DNA from: Xestospongia bergquistia
Taxonomy: Eukaryota > Porifera > Demospongiae > Haplosclerida > Petrosiidae
Direction of reading: 5' to 3'
DNA length: 64,000 nt
Assembly (NCBI GenBank): GCA_963965975.1
Contig: OZ014412.1
Span: forward strand, 1,862,501 to 1,926,500
Positions 8,053 to 62,533 of the stretch are shown one piece after another (the first letter of the stretch is position 1; every line of letters begins with the position of its first letter). The position numbers and the translations under genes are program-made. The notes under the pieces were generated by a model. It was given only the letters and a program-made list of their open reading frames with translations, was not told the DNA's origin and made no database searches.

Positions 8053-10425
8053 TCACACATGATCACAGTCTATGAAATCATTTTCTGGTCTGATATTAAC
8101 ATAATCAGGTGTTATTGTAACAAGTTCATAAGATGTATTCTGTGTCATTGTTATCTGATATTGTTTAGTATCTTCATATGATATATTATGTTGTATAGTT
8201 ATATCATCATCAATACTATTACACTCTATAATATAATATAATTAGATTATATTACATGTATACATGATATACATACTTTGTATCTTCTTTATATAATAAA
8301 CACCCACACAAACAACACTAACAATATTAATTAGTATTATCAAAATTATTAACACACTAATGATACTAGTAACTATTATAACTAAAGAAGTGATATAAAC
8401 TGATCATATAATATTATATACTAACCATTACTAGGAGTTGATTGAGTTGATTCATTAGAAGGAGATGACATCATCAAAGATGTTGTAACTAGATAATATT
8501 AATAATAAAATGTTGATGTTAGATCATCACATTTAATTCTATTATATAGTTAATTATATTATAAAACTCACTATATCATTATCAGTAATATTCAATATAT
8601 ATCTTACCATCAACAATACTAGTAGATAATATTAATGTTGTAGTAGAAGTAATAACTTGTGTTGATGATGACTCTATTATTAATATATTCTGTTCTTTAT
8701 ATACAACTAAAATATCTGAGGAATTATCACTTTCAATATCATAGACATAGAGATCATATAATCCAATGATGTTCACACATCCACCAGATGTACTAGCTGT
8801 GATAGGACTTCTTAAGAAATGCTTTTCAAGTATAATAATATCATTTTGTAATAAGTTGATCAGACATCCTAACTCTGTAGCTCCATTAATATAGTAACAT
8901 ATAATACATATAGAGCCAGGATTAATAGTAACTGTCACATTCTGTATACCATGAGTAGCTATAATAGATAATAATAATAATAATAATAATAATAATAATA
9001 ATAATAATAATAATAATAATAATGTATTATTGTACTTACTAAAGTTAACATCAGTGATTGTATTAAAGGTTCCATCAAGATTACTAAGAGTAACTTCACC
9101 AATATATGTCATATCAGGACTTAATATAATAGAGTTAGTTATATTAATAGATGGTCCACTAGTTAATACATTACTCATTATAGTAAATATCACTTCACCA
9201 GTAGTAGAATTCTTTATATCTACTATAGCATTAGTAGGGTATTCTCCAGGACAAAGGTGAGTTACCTAATAGAAACAATGTTATACCATATAAGGAAATA
9301 CTCTGAAGATATCATAACAGTAATGTAATCAGGTTTATATTATCTAATATATTGTTTGTATTATTATATACTGATGTATCAGTACATACTATGTTAACTA
9401 TATAGACTATAGTATACTAGCACATGTACATATTTAACTTATATATAAACATACATTATTAATATATCTATTGTCATTATAATATCTTACATTAACTGAT
9501 ATAATAATATGGACCATATTTCCTGATATTACTGGAGTAATAGACACAGATATCAATGAACTGTTTTGAGGTACTGTAATAGAAAGTTAAAATAAAATTA
9601 ATATAATACAGGTATAAATACTTTGTTTACTACTAATAATATATCGTAATAGATAATTAAGAACTTACCTTTTGGGAAATAAAACAATACATTAGATTTG
9701 ATACCATTACCAGCTGTATTAATAGCAAATATATCTACTATTATTTTAGCACAAGGATTAGTTTCATTAGATCCACTTTGATATAATAATTGTAGGGACT
9801 TTGTGAAAAATATCTCTATTTCATTTGTTAGTATGTTAGTAATAGTAATATTGTAGCCATTAATATATGTATTATCAAGAGTATATGGAGTAGACCAAGA
9901 TAATATTACTGTATTAGTACTAGTAATATTAACAGTTAGATCTCTAACACCATCTAATAAACCTATAATGAGATAATAAAATAAAATTTATTGACGATAT
10001 TGTCTACCTTGGATTAATAATAACACCCTATTACTAATATCATCAGATGATGGTGATATATTAGAACCAACACAAGAAATATTAGTATTATTGTTGCTTT
10101 CTTTCGGATCAGCTAATAAAACTCGACTTATTGTATTATTGATAGGATCTGATGTGCCTTGTTGATAAAATCCTTTGTTCGTAATGTCAGTATTAGTAGC
10201 TGGTGTGTTGTTGACAACAAAGATTATAAAGTCAGCTCTAGCTGTACAAGTGAACTTAACTTGTCCTGAGTTTACAGTAGTATTTATAGGTAATGGATGA
10301 ACTAATATCACTAAGAGAGAAGACAGGATAGTGATAATACTATCAGATATTGTCAATTCCTTACTAGCATCCTGACTTATAATACAGTTCAATTGTAGAA
10401 AGGTTACAATCACTACAATCAACAT
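8053..10425 (-). CDS. Receptor B: Ig-FN3 receptor with four-tyrosine tail
   Basis: Exons, high to low: 10425-10365 (signal peptide MLIVVIVTFLQLNCIISQ), 10310-10008 (Ig domain, VKFTCTA...NISCVG), 9962-9669 (FN3), 9573-9491 and 9265-9040 (partner domain with CPGEYPTN), 8958-8608 (Cys-rich domain ending LYDLYVYDIESDN), 8488-8426 (Ser/Thr stalk), 8381-8277 (membrane helix plus YYIKK) and 8225-8053 (tail). A 5' untranslated exon probably ends near 10803, where CAAAG/GTAAG is a good donor. Compared with C, E, I and L it lacks the second FN3 unit but has the extra Cys-rich domain that is also found in plus-strand receptors F and J. The tail carries ISYEDT, KQYQIT, TSYELV and DYVNI, then a unique 12-residue extension ending IDCDHV. 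All frames join, so it looks intact. Likely a cell-surface signalling receptor. Confidence 0.8.
8968..9023. repeat. (TAA)n microsatellite in receptor B intron
   Basis: About 18 TAA units in the intron between the GEYPTN exon and the Cys-rich exon. A similar, slightly longer run sits at the matching place in copy H (44247-44307), so the tract predates the B/H duplication. Confidence 0.9.
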
Positions 10426-11229
10426 AAACCTATAAATAAATAATAAAAAATACTGACATATTATATAACATGTATTGAGCTCAGAAAGTTTTAAAGACAA
10501 AATATTTATTAGTATATTTGATTCAACTGCAATCAACAACCATTATTACAAAGTAAGATTGAATCATTTTTTTAATTTTAAAATCATAGCACTAGCAAAT
10601 TATAATGATCATGACTCTTCACACTCAAATATATTTATAATAAAAACATAGAAAATGCAGAAAATTACCTCATAATACAGACTGCAATCATTTTGTGATA
10701 TAATTGTATATAATTATATCACAATATTGTATATCATAATAATATATATATTGTATATAATTTATGGTATGTATATTATAGAAGACTTCATATAAAGACT
10801 TACCTTTGATAACACAAATCCATAGACTCTACTGTTATTATACTGTCAGCAAAATAATGTAGCCACTCCCCCTGTATCCTGTATTGTTCATGTTCATACC
10901 CTCCCTCATTAAAGTCATATGTATCAAGCCTCTCTCCTTCATCTTGTGTGTTTGGTCATATTAGTATTGTATGTAAAACATTTAACAATGAAAACATACC
11001 AAATTATGTAGTAATAATTTTTTCATTTTATATGTTTGTTGTATTGTATTAATAATAAGTTTCAATATCATATCTTTTAGTATTAAATAAAATATAAAAT
11101 ATCTATTGCAGACTGATAGGTAATTACTGCTTTTATATCAATAAAACAATAACTAAATTCTATACCAACTAAAGAACAATGGAAAATTAGATAATTACTA
11201 TTAAATATATAAACACATTATAACTATAT
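10426..11229. other. 5' region of receptor B and spacer to receptor C
   Basis: Contains the 5' intron and leader exon of B (donor near 10803) and an AT-rich spacer. The leader and promoter stretch at about 10800-10970 is repeated upstream of copy H at about 46075-46235. No other gene is seen. Confidence 0.5.
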
Positions 11230-60215: not shown

Positions 60216-60344
60216 TTTATTTAATAATAGTAATATTATTAATAATTATTATATATCACATGAATTATTGTATTCATTTAATATTAACATAATCAGGCAA
60301 ACATAAAAATAACTTTTATTATAAAAAATACATTATAATTATAT

Positions 60345-62533
60345 TCAATTAATATTAACATAATCAGGTGTTATTGTGACAAGTTCATAAGATGTATTCT
60401 GTGTCATTGTTATCTGATATTGTTTAGTATCTTCATATGATATATTATGTTGTATAGTTATATCATCATCAATACTATTACACTCTATAATATAATATAA
60501 TTAGATTATATTACATGTATACATGATATACATACTTTGTATCTTCTTTATATAATAAACACCCACACAAATAACACTGACAATACTAATTAATATTATT
60601 AAGATACTAATGATGATCACAGTGATAACTATTATAACTAGAGAGAGAGGAGTTATTAATAAATATTTAGTTATATTATTAACATACTAGGAAAACTCTG
60701 AGATCCAGGTATGACTATTGTAGAATAACTTTGTACAGTGGGATTAGTATCTGTATTAATATAATAATGATATAGTATTTTATGATGTCACTATATCTTA
60801 CATAAAGTATATACAGACAATGTTATTATATTGGTAGTTGATGGTAGGGTTGTTATATAATAACTTTGGACATTGGAGGCAGTATTGAGAACAGAAGTAA
60901 GAAAACCTGTCTCATACAAGAGATAATACACACACACACACACACAATATAACATGTGATATATAACTTACTAAATGGAAATACATTGATAGTATGTCCA
61001 GCCGGATTACTAAGAGTTACCTCAACAAGATATGTCCTTAAGTTAAAAGGTGATGATATATTAACTATTATCAGTTGATTATTAACTAAAGACAGTGTCA
61101 CATCATTAGATAATGTTTGTTGTAGAACATCATTAGAATCTTTGATATTTATTGCAATATTAGTAGGATACTCACCAATACATAGACCACTGACCTAACA
61201 GAGATAACATCATAACAAAGAAATATAAATTATTATAACCAATTATACTAACAAAACCTAATTACAATATATTACAATACTATTATATGTGTATATACAA
61301 CTATCAGTAGTATATATAACTACATATTGTATGATAACTATATTGTGTAATATAATAATTATTATATTAAACAATACTGATTGTTGTCCATTTATATTAT
61401 ATTGATACATTGTAAAATTAATATGTTATTTTAACAACTAATTTGTAGCTCATATCAATGGATTACTATGAAAACTAGAGTTCATGAAAATTACTCATTA
61501 TATAATTTGTTAGTATTGTGTTAAGAAAGCAACAAATTGTATAGTGAGTAATTTATATGAACTCTATATTCATAGTAATCCATTCATGTGAGCTAGAAAT
61601 TTGTTGCTAAAATAATATATTTTAATTTTTACAGTTAATATATACTAACATTTGTAATTATTTGAAATAAAAAATTATCTCCATCTACTATTGGTATAAC
61701 TGATACTGGAATAGTTTGAGGAACTAAAATATAACAAAAATGTAACATCCCTGTATAACATAATATGTTACCTCTAGCAATATAGTACATGACATTATTA
61801 CTATCTCCTATACCAGCTCCATTAATACCAGAGACATATACAGTAGTTACATTACATGGATCATCATTACTAGATGTCAGGATGTACTCAGTAGTATTAA
61901 CTATGTCTATAAGTGTTCCTTGATCATCATTGATGTTATATCCAGTGATAGGTACATTATCCAATGTATATGGTGCAGACCACATCAGTAACACGCTAGA
62001 TCCATTGAGAACTATAGCAGTTAGATCTTTAACAGGAGCTAGTAAACCTACATCAATAATAATATGACATCTATAACATTAGCTTACCTTGTATTCTTAA
62101 CACAGCAATATCACTTTCTCTGTTCATTAGAGAACCATATGCTCTACATGATATATTAGTATTATTGTTATCTTCAAATGCTATAGCTGATAATATTCTT
62201 CTCTTTATACCACCATTGAGAGTCTCTTGTGGTTGTTCATTAAATCCTCTGTTAATAACTTCTATATTACCTAGCGCTACTGTCATATCATTCATTCTGA
62301 AGACAATCACTTCAGCAACAGCTTCACAAGTAAAAGTAACTGTTAAGTTAAGAGTGGTATTGACTGATTGAGGATGAACTGTAATATCTATATAATAATG
62401 ATAATAACAAATATAAATATATTATAGTAGTAATGATAATCATTTTCAACATTATATACTTACCAACTGAATGGACCAGAGTTGATAGAATAGCTATCAT
62501 CACAGTCAGTATCAAATATAAGGTAGACATCAT
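60345..62533 (-). CDS. Receptor M: shortened Ig-FN3 receptor with four-tyrosine tail
   Basis: Exons, high to low: 62533-62464 (signal), 62387-62088 (Ig, close to L), 62047-61772 (FN3), 61723-61650, 61194-60974 (partner domain), 60906-60802 (hybrid exon), 60750-60688 (stalk), 60637-60536 (membrane helix) and 60484-60345 (tail with TSYELV). A deletion fused the first residues of exon 6 (FLTSVLN) to stalk-like sequence (VQSYYITTLPSTTN), removing the second FN3 and its partner domain. The 105-bp hybrid exon keeps phase at both ends, so the gene should still make a shorter receptor of Ig, FN3, partner domain, stalk, membrane helix and tail. The stalk exon is also shortened in frame. Functional status is likely but unproven. 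Confidence 0.8.
61430..61605. repeat. Fold-back element in receptor M intron 4
   Basis: The clearest copy of the hairpin. The outer arms (CAATGGATTACTATGAAAAC and ATTCATAGTAATCCATTCAT) pair over ~75 bp. Confidence 0.75.

Follow-up and report, generated by a model that had tools for sequence, protein, structure and literature searches.

Ig-FN3 receptors of the demosponge Xestospongia bergquistia: a clustered germline family with a diversified tip exon and tyrosine-motif tails, and its candidacy for a recognition role

In the demosponge Xestospongia bergquistia, a stretch of 64,000 nucleotides (GenBank assembly GCA_963965975.1, contig OZ014412.1, positions 1,862,501 to 1,926,500; here called the window and numbered from its first letter) carries ten related genes and one gene fragment between positions 8,053 and 62,530. 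They lie on both strands, share conserved exon borders and encode putative receptors whose extracellular part combines an immunoglobulin (Ig)-like exon with FN3 domains. What is new here is the divergence of, and selection on, exon 2, the existence of 32 tyrosine tails in three subtypes, and the presence in the same genome of at least nine loci encoding SH2-SH2-phosphatases. On balance, we think it slightly favoured that these are recognition receptors encoded in the germline, their tip diversified and their tails docking SH2 domains, similar in their logic to FcoR of Botryllus and Alr of Hydractinia.

The family was mapped exon by exon by tblastn with exon queries taken from the window, and it falls where a previous sequence-only reading of this DNA had placed a tandem Ig-FN3 family on both strands, a claim that is confirmed far beyond chance. 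For modelling, one copy (gene J, the reference) was read in three frames and its exon borders were transferred to the others. The spliced models of C, E, F, G, J, L, M and N have GT-AG borders, matching phases and no internal stops, the only exception being one GC-AG intron in E; that of B is likewise GT-AG and open, with exons 1 and 2 in a single frame. Eight genes (B, C, E, F, G, J, L and M) are open, the 3' limit of G being provisional, and N is an in-frame short form. Ectodomain introns are in phase 1 throughout, except for those within domains D3 and D5, which are in phase 0. A frameshift in exon 7 and a stop between transmembrane (TM) segment and tail, both seen in the raw open reading frames, were rejected as lesions, as they are accounted for by introns of 49 bases (with a GTGAGT donor) and 51 bases, respectively.

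The complete genes C, E, J and M (609-616 amino acids, aa) run from a signal peptide through the Ig-like exon 2, the FN3 exon 3, D3 (exons 4-5), the FN3 exon 6 and D5 (exons 7a-7b) to a Ser/Thr-rich stem, a TM segment and a cytoplasmic exon with four tyrosines. Gene N keeps exons 1-5, stem, TM segment and tail in frame and is missing exons 6 and 7. In B and I the order is Ig, FN3, D3 and then a domain D6, followed by the same four-tyrosine tail as in C-type genes; I has a stop in exon 2. The D3-D6 intron of these two minus-strand genes contains a TTA microsatellite (window 9.0 kb and 44.3 kb). F, G and L occupy the plus strand, with an extra D6 in F and L. The D6 exon of G is broken by stops and is apparently skipped, as a working G would need; the TM exon joins in phase once this is done. 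The hydrophobic end of L could be of a glycosylphosphatidylinositol (GPI)-like or a TM type, and a second possible TM exon is found at 51,929-52,039.

Pfam recognises fn3 in two full models (2.4e-9 and 4.5e-10), and its Ig model scores under the curated cut-off on exon 2; the exon 2 tip is likely to be an Ig domain. Comparison of the exon 2 sequence with solved structures gave a single match, to a ribosomal protein (E 1.2), which is taken as chance. Since Foldseek hits with D6 are weak, FN3 and Ig-like domains being among them, this fold can be called a beta-sandwich at best.

The window contains only a fraction of the receptor family. A genome search with exon 3 gave 96 matches from the best 150 of 222 candidates; near full-length copies occur at at least 63 places with 80-99% identity (one with a stop), all on C2, the contig that holds the window: 47 at 0.44-0.77 Mb, eight in the window, one adjoining it, five at 2.25-2.37 Mb and two at 10.7 Mb. 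Exon 6 has at least 41 matches (92-98% identity, no stops). Full-length exon 2, by comparison, has at least 61 matches at 61-94% identity to a composite query, two of them interrupted by stops, with more matches at 45-55%. Over megabases, then, the copies hardly differ in much of their stalk, as exons 3 and 6 show, but do differ in the tip. No relatives outside this genome were seen in one scan of genome contigs with exon 6 and one of viral contigs with exon 3. A second Ig/FN3 family, termed A, lies at 6,064-7,567 and 15,531-16,672 of the window (both minus) and at C2:1808-1837 kb. Five full-length copies of it are 55-66% identical to the window copy in the first exon and 90-95% in the FN3 exon, again a variable tip on a uniform stalk.

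The same contrast is visible at the nucleotide level. Nonsynonymous (dN) and synonymous (dS) divergence was estimated by the Nei-Gojobori method for the window copies C, E, F, G, J, L, M and N (seven for exons 6 and 7), with B, I and K excluded. Mean dN/dS values are 0.241/0.350 in exon 1, 0.207/0.345 in exon 2 and 0.199/0.296 in exon 4, to be compared with 0.054/0.092 in exon 3, 0.053/0.035 in exon 5, 0.035/0.056 in exon 6, 0.067/0.177 in exon 7a, 0.095/0.087 in exon 7b and 0.013/0.032 in the tail (five copies). The pairwise ratios of exons 5 (1.52) and 7b (1.09) were rejected as signs of selection, since synonymous changes are few in these exons and no site class reaches significance. Intron divergence tracks that of the neighbouring exons (6% for the exon 2-3 intron, 32% for exon 1-2, 41% for exon 4-5), and windowed divergence drops from 0.16-0.28 to 0.04 at the exon 2-3 border before rising again at exon 4. 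The copies are mosaics: in exons 1 and 4 the nearest relative of F is G, in exon 2 it is E. Most simply, exons 3, 5-7 and the tail would have been homogenised by gene conversion or unequal exchange, leaving older diversity in exons 1-2 and 4. The locus is a clean natural example of diversity retained in some exons of otherwise homogenised genes.

Of the five exons to which our own codon-site models were applied, exon 2 alone showed positive selection. The exon 2 set comprised 12 sequences, namely the eight window copies, three from elsewhere on C2 (P, Q, R) and one from contig C1 (S); copy S is also in the exon 7b set, and was left out of those for exons 5 and 6 (stops) and exon 3 (split). For exon 2, M2a is preferred over M1a with twice the log-likelihood difference (2dlnL) at 19-21 (p 2e-5 to 7e-5) and M8 over M7 at 21.5, the selected class comprising 4-7% of sites with omega about 3-4. 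The signal persists without copy S (21.6) and in the eight window copies alone (12.3, p 0.002). None of 60 simulations under the M1a null reached the observed 19.1 (maximum 10.6); three exceeded 8, more than expected from the chi-square distribution, which makes the nominal p values a little too optimistic. No significant positive-selection class was obtained for exons 3 (p 0.46), 5 (0.18), 6 (0.12) and 7b (0.41), which also hold less variation. A caveat for exon 2 is recombination among paralogues; when its halves are given their own trees, the 3' half is significant (p 6e-5) and the 5' half is not (0.11). Sites 28 and 84 stand out. In the structure model the latter lies past the second cysteine, in a low-confidence loop at a position resembling that of complementarity-determining region 3.

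At the opposite end of the molecule the sequence-only reading had proposed four membrane/tail modules, and this holds: the four-tyrosine tail is present in seven of the ten genes (B, C, E, I, J, M and N), and the tail is short in F, proline-rich in G and missing from L. The four-tyrosine exon has 32 matches genome-wide. Nineteen show 89-100% identity (seven in the window; on C2 four at 0.45-0.70 Mb, one at 1.84, one at 1.93 and two at 2.31-2.36 Mb; three on C1 and one on C3), and 13, all at C2:0.44-0.77 Mb, show 39-64%. Twelve of these 13 were read, L028 (one stop) not among them, and the 11 that could be aligned, L060 (frame ends early) being left unaligned, form two further subtypes. The tail of E is absent from the subtype alignment and included in the motif counts; those of P, M and N are assigned to type I, the type of the window, from the four-tyrosine exon search. 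When the majority residue of each subtype is compared, 11 of 45 ungapped columns agree in all three, including the first, third and fourth tyrosines (Y1, Y3, Y4) and a valine at Y3+3. Three of the four tyrosine columns are kept (hypergeometric p 0.04).

With motifs defined as in PMC7078208 (cited, like other sources marked "in part", for a portion of its text), Y3 reads as an immunoreceptor tyrosine-based switch motif (ITSM, TxYxx[VI]) in 13 of 23 distinct tails: 8/12 of type I, 0/6 of type II and 5/5 of type III. In the window this applies to B, I, J, M and N, and not to C and E. An inhibitory motif (ITIM), which accepts I, L, V or S at position -2 ([ILVS]xYxx[ILV]), is found at Y3 in none of the 12 type I tails and in 4/6 of type II, the latter located elsewhere on the chromosome; one or the other motif occurs in 17/23. 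Y4 forms a YxxPhi site (YVNI, YVNV, YVDI or YLTI) in all aligned tails of types I-II and in 3/5 of type III, and 16/18 type I-II tails fit pYxN (pY, phosphotyrosine), a Grb2-like motif. Membership of the activation motif (ITAM), which has the form Yxx[LI]-x6-8-Yxx[LI], was rejected: type I reads YxxV-x5-YxxI, and types II and III have YxxV at Y3 and a longer spacer. At three loci (L009, L010, L015) a short frame just past the tail exon ends in DYVNIN, DYVNVK or DYVNIK, repeating the last tyrosine motif; it is perhaps a partial duplication or an alternative end.

A tail like that of G occurs at 24 places on C2 including G itself (two with stops), some of them beyond the exon 3 cluster; the TM segment and tail of F were matched nowhere but in F in the genome search. 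Of the tail types proposed earlier, the tyrosine and the proline-rich are both common. That tails oppose one another is unproven: the short tail is a single case, that of F, and no charge was seen in the middle of a TM segment (that of F has an Asp only at its outer edge, and the second TM exon that L may have carries a Lys close to the outer edge; no search for ITAM adaptors was made).

Candidate readers of such tails are encoded in the same genome. At least nine loci have the order SH2-SH2-protein tyrosine phosphatase (PTP) by Pfam SH2 and Y_phosphatase matches, in all but the C6 locus (8/9) with one frame that apparently spans the domains, the array stop aside. One of them was read and contains GSFIVR, GSYLVR and HCSAGIGRTG, matching residues 4-507 of PTPN11 (E 1.3e-152); the other eight are assigned by domain order alone. 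Animals commonly have one or two genes of this kind. Two other SH2 loci were encountered. Ten SH2 matches in tandem, with open frames of 398-500 aa (C6:1622265-1697212), are perhaps Src-type kinases, and about 40 kb past the window a gene (L039, C2:1966.5-1968.9 kb) combines an SH2 domain with a RhoGAP-like stretch and proline-rich sequence, which we take to resemble a PI3K regulatory subunit. Among sponges, Amphimedon is known to have kinases of the Syk family (PMC9601881, in part).

These elements can be assembled into a working model. The genes would encode single-pass surface receptors of a large germline demosponge family, with the Ig-like domain of exon 2 as the putative binding tip and, below it, a stalk built from FN3 and FN3/Ig-like sandwich domains. 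Most of the stalk and the tail would be kept near-uniform by gene conversion or unequal exchange, as the pattern of divergence suggests, whereas exon 2 would retain old differences that, among paralogues, are partly positively selected. Perhaps half of the family might have the SH2-docking tail, judging from 32 tails against 63 copies of exon 3, which are not paired gene by gene. Y1, Y3 and Y4 are predicted to be phosphorylated, Y3 lying in an ITSM/ITIM-like motif, and the most likely reader would be an SHP-type tandem-SH2 phosphatase, of which this genome has unusually many. Other members would carry proline-rich SH3-type tails or almost none, and receptors with much the same ectodomain might in this way feed different outputs. 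On engaging its ligand, whether self, non-self or microbial, the tip may then set the threshold of cell activation.

Several observations call for caution. Exons 1 and 4 and their introns are nearly as divergent as exon 2, which speaks against selection as the sole cause of the pattern. The overall dN/dS of exon 2 is 0.40-0.60; a ratio above 1 is rejected for the exon as a whole, and only the small site class exceeds it. Because 16-30% of shuffled tails hold an ITSM/ITIM-type motif, the argument from the tails is one of conservation and not of motif match. Finally, phosphatase domains are numerous in this genome in general (at least 194 matches), so that the link between receptors and SHP is circumstantial.

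If the genes do serve recognition, what they recognise is a separate matter. Sponges live with dense microbiota. Individual-specific receptor repertoires have been described in Halichondria (PMC8242945, in part), and sensing of pathogens or symbionts through microbial ligands, rather than of self and non-self, is a real possibility, if one with somewhat less than even chances; nothing in the data favours microbial over self ligands, or the reverse. A bolder proposal, a polymorphic complex of paired type in which ITSM/ITIM-like tails and a co-expanded SHP set read self versus non-self, can be put forward only tentatively. The main rivals to recognition are adhesion and neutral turnover. A role in adhesion, with sponge-specific homophilic or matrix-binding proteins serving aggregation or tissue layering and tails devoted to endocytosis (YxxPhi) or the cytoskeleton (PxxP), is unlikely, even though the Ig-FN3 architecture is typical of adhesion molecules and the YxxPhi and PxxPxK motifs suit endocytosis and SH3 adaptors. 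The Ig superfamily (IgSF) of sponges has indeed been described mainly in adhesion, according to a review of invertebrate IgSF proteins (PMC11999971, in part). However, more than 60 copies, a selected tip, a homogenised stalk and co-occurring SHP-type loci would be unexpected for a housekeeping set. Mostly neutral turnover, in which a young tandem family undergoes unequal exchange with conversion tracts that missed exon 2 and has no recognition role, would explain the low overall ratio of exon 2, the exon-wise mosaicism, the second divergent island (exon 4 and introns), the stop in gene I and fragment K, but is improbable given a site class that the four control exons lack and whose support no null simulation equalled, intact frames, tyrosines kept across divergent tails, and a neighbouring family A in which the first exon likewise varies and the FN3 exon is uniform.

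Germline recognition receptors, the reading preferred here, have their closest counterparts in Botryllus and Hydractinia, which also encode clustered type I IgSF receptors with tyrosine-motif tails; this description applies to the sponge genes, with an Ig nature of the tip that is likely. FcoR of Botryllus schlosseri (fuhc locus) is polymorphic, with tails containing ITIM, hemITAM or bare YxxI/L/V motifs (PMC12065747, in part). Its ectodomain consists of V-Ig, sushi and two C2-Ig domains, in contrast to the Ig-like, FN3 and sandwich domains of the sponge receptors, and its polymorphism is known whereas the sponge locus is known from one assembly. Hydractinia Alr (41 genes) is likewise a large clustered IgSF family in an early-branching animal, with candidate genes bearing ITAM/ITIM motifs (PMC11999971, PMC12065747, both in part); V-set/I-set Ig domains are reported there, whereas the sponge receptors have FN3 domains and exon-wise homogenisation, and the likeness is one of description. 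PD-1/SLAM-type ITSM receptors share the TxYxxV motif, and candidate SHP-2-type readers are encoded in the sponge genome; their ectodomains are different, and the likeness drawn is one of motif. As to mammals, KIR/LILR receptors resemble the sponge family in combining related ectodomains with different tails, including tyrosine tails of a related type. They are read by SHP phosphatases, have ectodomains of C2-type Ig domains only, bind major histocompatibility complex (MHC) ligands and use a charged TM residue for adaptor pairing. The sponge plan differs, with one Ig-like exon followed by FN3 domains. The many pseudogenes of KIR/LILR and Alr clusters, which the sequence-only reading had named in its comparison, also fit the window poorly, as gene I alone of the ten has a stop. 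What does stand is a clustered demosponge family with one ectodomain plan and different tails, much of its diversity lying in exon 2.

Among sponges themselves, titles of cited references present aggregation factors as polymorphic recognition molecules encoded by a gene family. The aggregation factor is an extracellular proteoglycan complex (PMC11999971, in part), unlike the transmembrane Ig-FN3 receptors described here. In an Amphimedon graft transcriptome, cell-adhesion/aggregation-factor genes were not significantly enriched according to the part of the source cited, and immunoglobulin, receptor, tyrosine and fibronectin go unmentioned in its main text (PMC5450542). Abundant Ig/fibronectin domains, Ig/FN3 cytokine-receptor-like transcripts or Ig-TIR genes have been noted in sponges (PMC4704026, PMC8242945, PMC12909245, all in part). 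No sponge ITIM/ITAM/ITSM receptor family was found in the open-access literature, among the matches listed, subscription papers being mostly outside its scope.

Table 1. Positions of receptor genes, selected exons and SH2-SH2-PTP loci. Unprefixed positions are those of the window; others are preceded by the contig handle.
Feature	Position	Strand	Basis
Gene B: Ig-FN3-D3-D6-stem-TM-four-Tyr tail, 570 aa, tail C-terminus longer	8053..10425	-	GT-AG open model
Gene C: signal peptide-Ig-FN3-D3-FN3-D5-stem-TM-four-Tyr tail, 612 aa	11230..13965	-	spliced model
Gene E: plan of C, 616 aa, one GC-AG intron	17035..19736	-	spliced model
Gene F: ectodomain of C plus D6, TM, short tail, 660 aa	24986..27562	+	spliced model
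Gene G: ectodomain of C, D6 broken, TM, long tail with PPPIPAK (PxxPxK); 3' limit provisional	31327..34519	+	spliced model
Gene I: B-type, stop in exon 2, otherwise conserved borders, four-Tyr tail; span from exon 2 to tail end	43364..45643	-	
Gene J: plan of C, 609 aa, reference model	46491..49143	-	spliced model
Gene L: ectodomain of C plus D6, stem, C-terminal hydrophobic segment, no tail, 641 aa	49308..51783	+	spliced model
Fragment K: part of exon 5, exons 6 and 7a, broken exons after	52201..53182	+	tblastn
Gene M: plan of C, 615 aa; stop just beyond modelled end	55748..58512	-	spliced model
Gene N: in-frame short form without exons 6, 7a and 7b, 414 aa	60345..62530	-	spliced model
Four-tyrosine cytoplasmic exon (type I tail) of J	46491..46630	-	
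Four-tyrosine exon, other copies	B 8053-8225; C 11230-11369; E 17035-17174; I 43364-43503; M 55748-55890; N 60345-60484		
Exon 2 of J, Ig-like tip, variable exon	48721..49008	-	
SH2-SH2-PTP array: six loci, one with in-frame stop, plus a phosphatase-only match	C3:1265457-1283528		
Single SH2-SH2-PTP loci	C3:916188-917681; C7:8318067-8319560; C6:199640-201523 (L064)		

The copy list of the sequence-only reading is retained for B, C, E, F, G, I, J, L, M and fragment K, and corrected for N, which is an in-frame gene and not a mere fragment. An Ig/FN3 gene at 35,813-37,256 (plus strand; fn3 5.3e-9), possibly the copy listed as H, was rejected as a member, having no full-length match to exons 2, 3 or 6; it belongs to another family, with a relative at C2:1979-1980 kb. 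Between the receptor copies are transposon remains on the plus strand (38,740-39,901, 21,939-22,259 and 28,066-29,745), with integrase-like frames (rve, below cut-off) and others that we presume, from their resemblance, to be zinc-finger/hAT-like. Towards the left end of the window, on the minus strand, lie an apparently separate gene in which a TM segment follows two Ig domains (Ig_3 2.4e-14 and 1.5e-7; 3,636-4,700) and a right-handed beta-helix protein with repeats of the SIEFSNCTIYNN type (Beta_helix 2e-16; 2-1,399). As to the host, a genome-wide search with a silicatein-like query yielded an exon (L061) that reads GCSYAFAAVGALEGA, in which Ser stands where the catalytic Cys would be, while a control cathepsin L-like exon (L063) reads CGSCWAF and L062 is of a Cys form. 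Silicatein is a demosponge enzyme in which Ser replaces the catalytic Cys of cathepsin L, and the Ser-form exon indicates a demosponge.

The molecules of sponge allorecognition are still unsettled, and the family described here is a candidate for a recognition system in a lineage that is among the oldest of animals. Its exons are named and can be genotyped, and its tail can be phosphorylated and matched to a phosphatase array, so that the question is directly testable. If the self/non-self proposal is true, the tyrosine-motif logic reported for cnidarians, tunicates and vertebrates would extend to Porifera, in genes kept mostly uniform outside a tip exon that holds the diversity.

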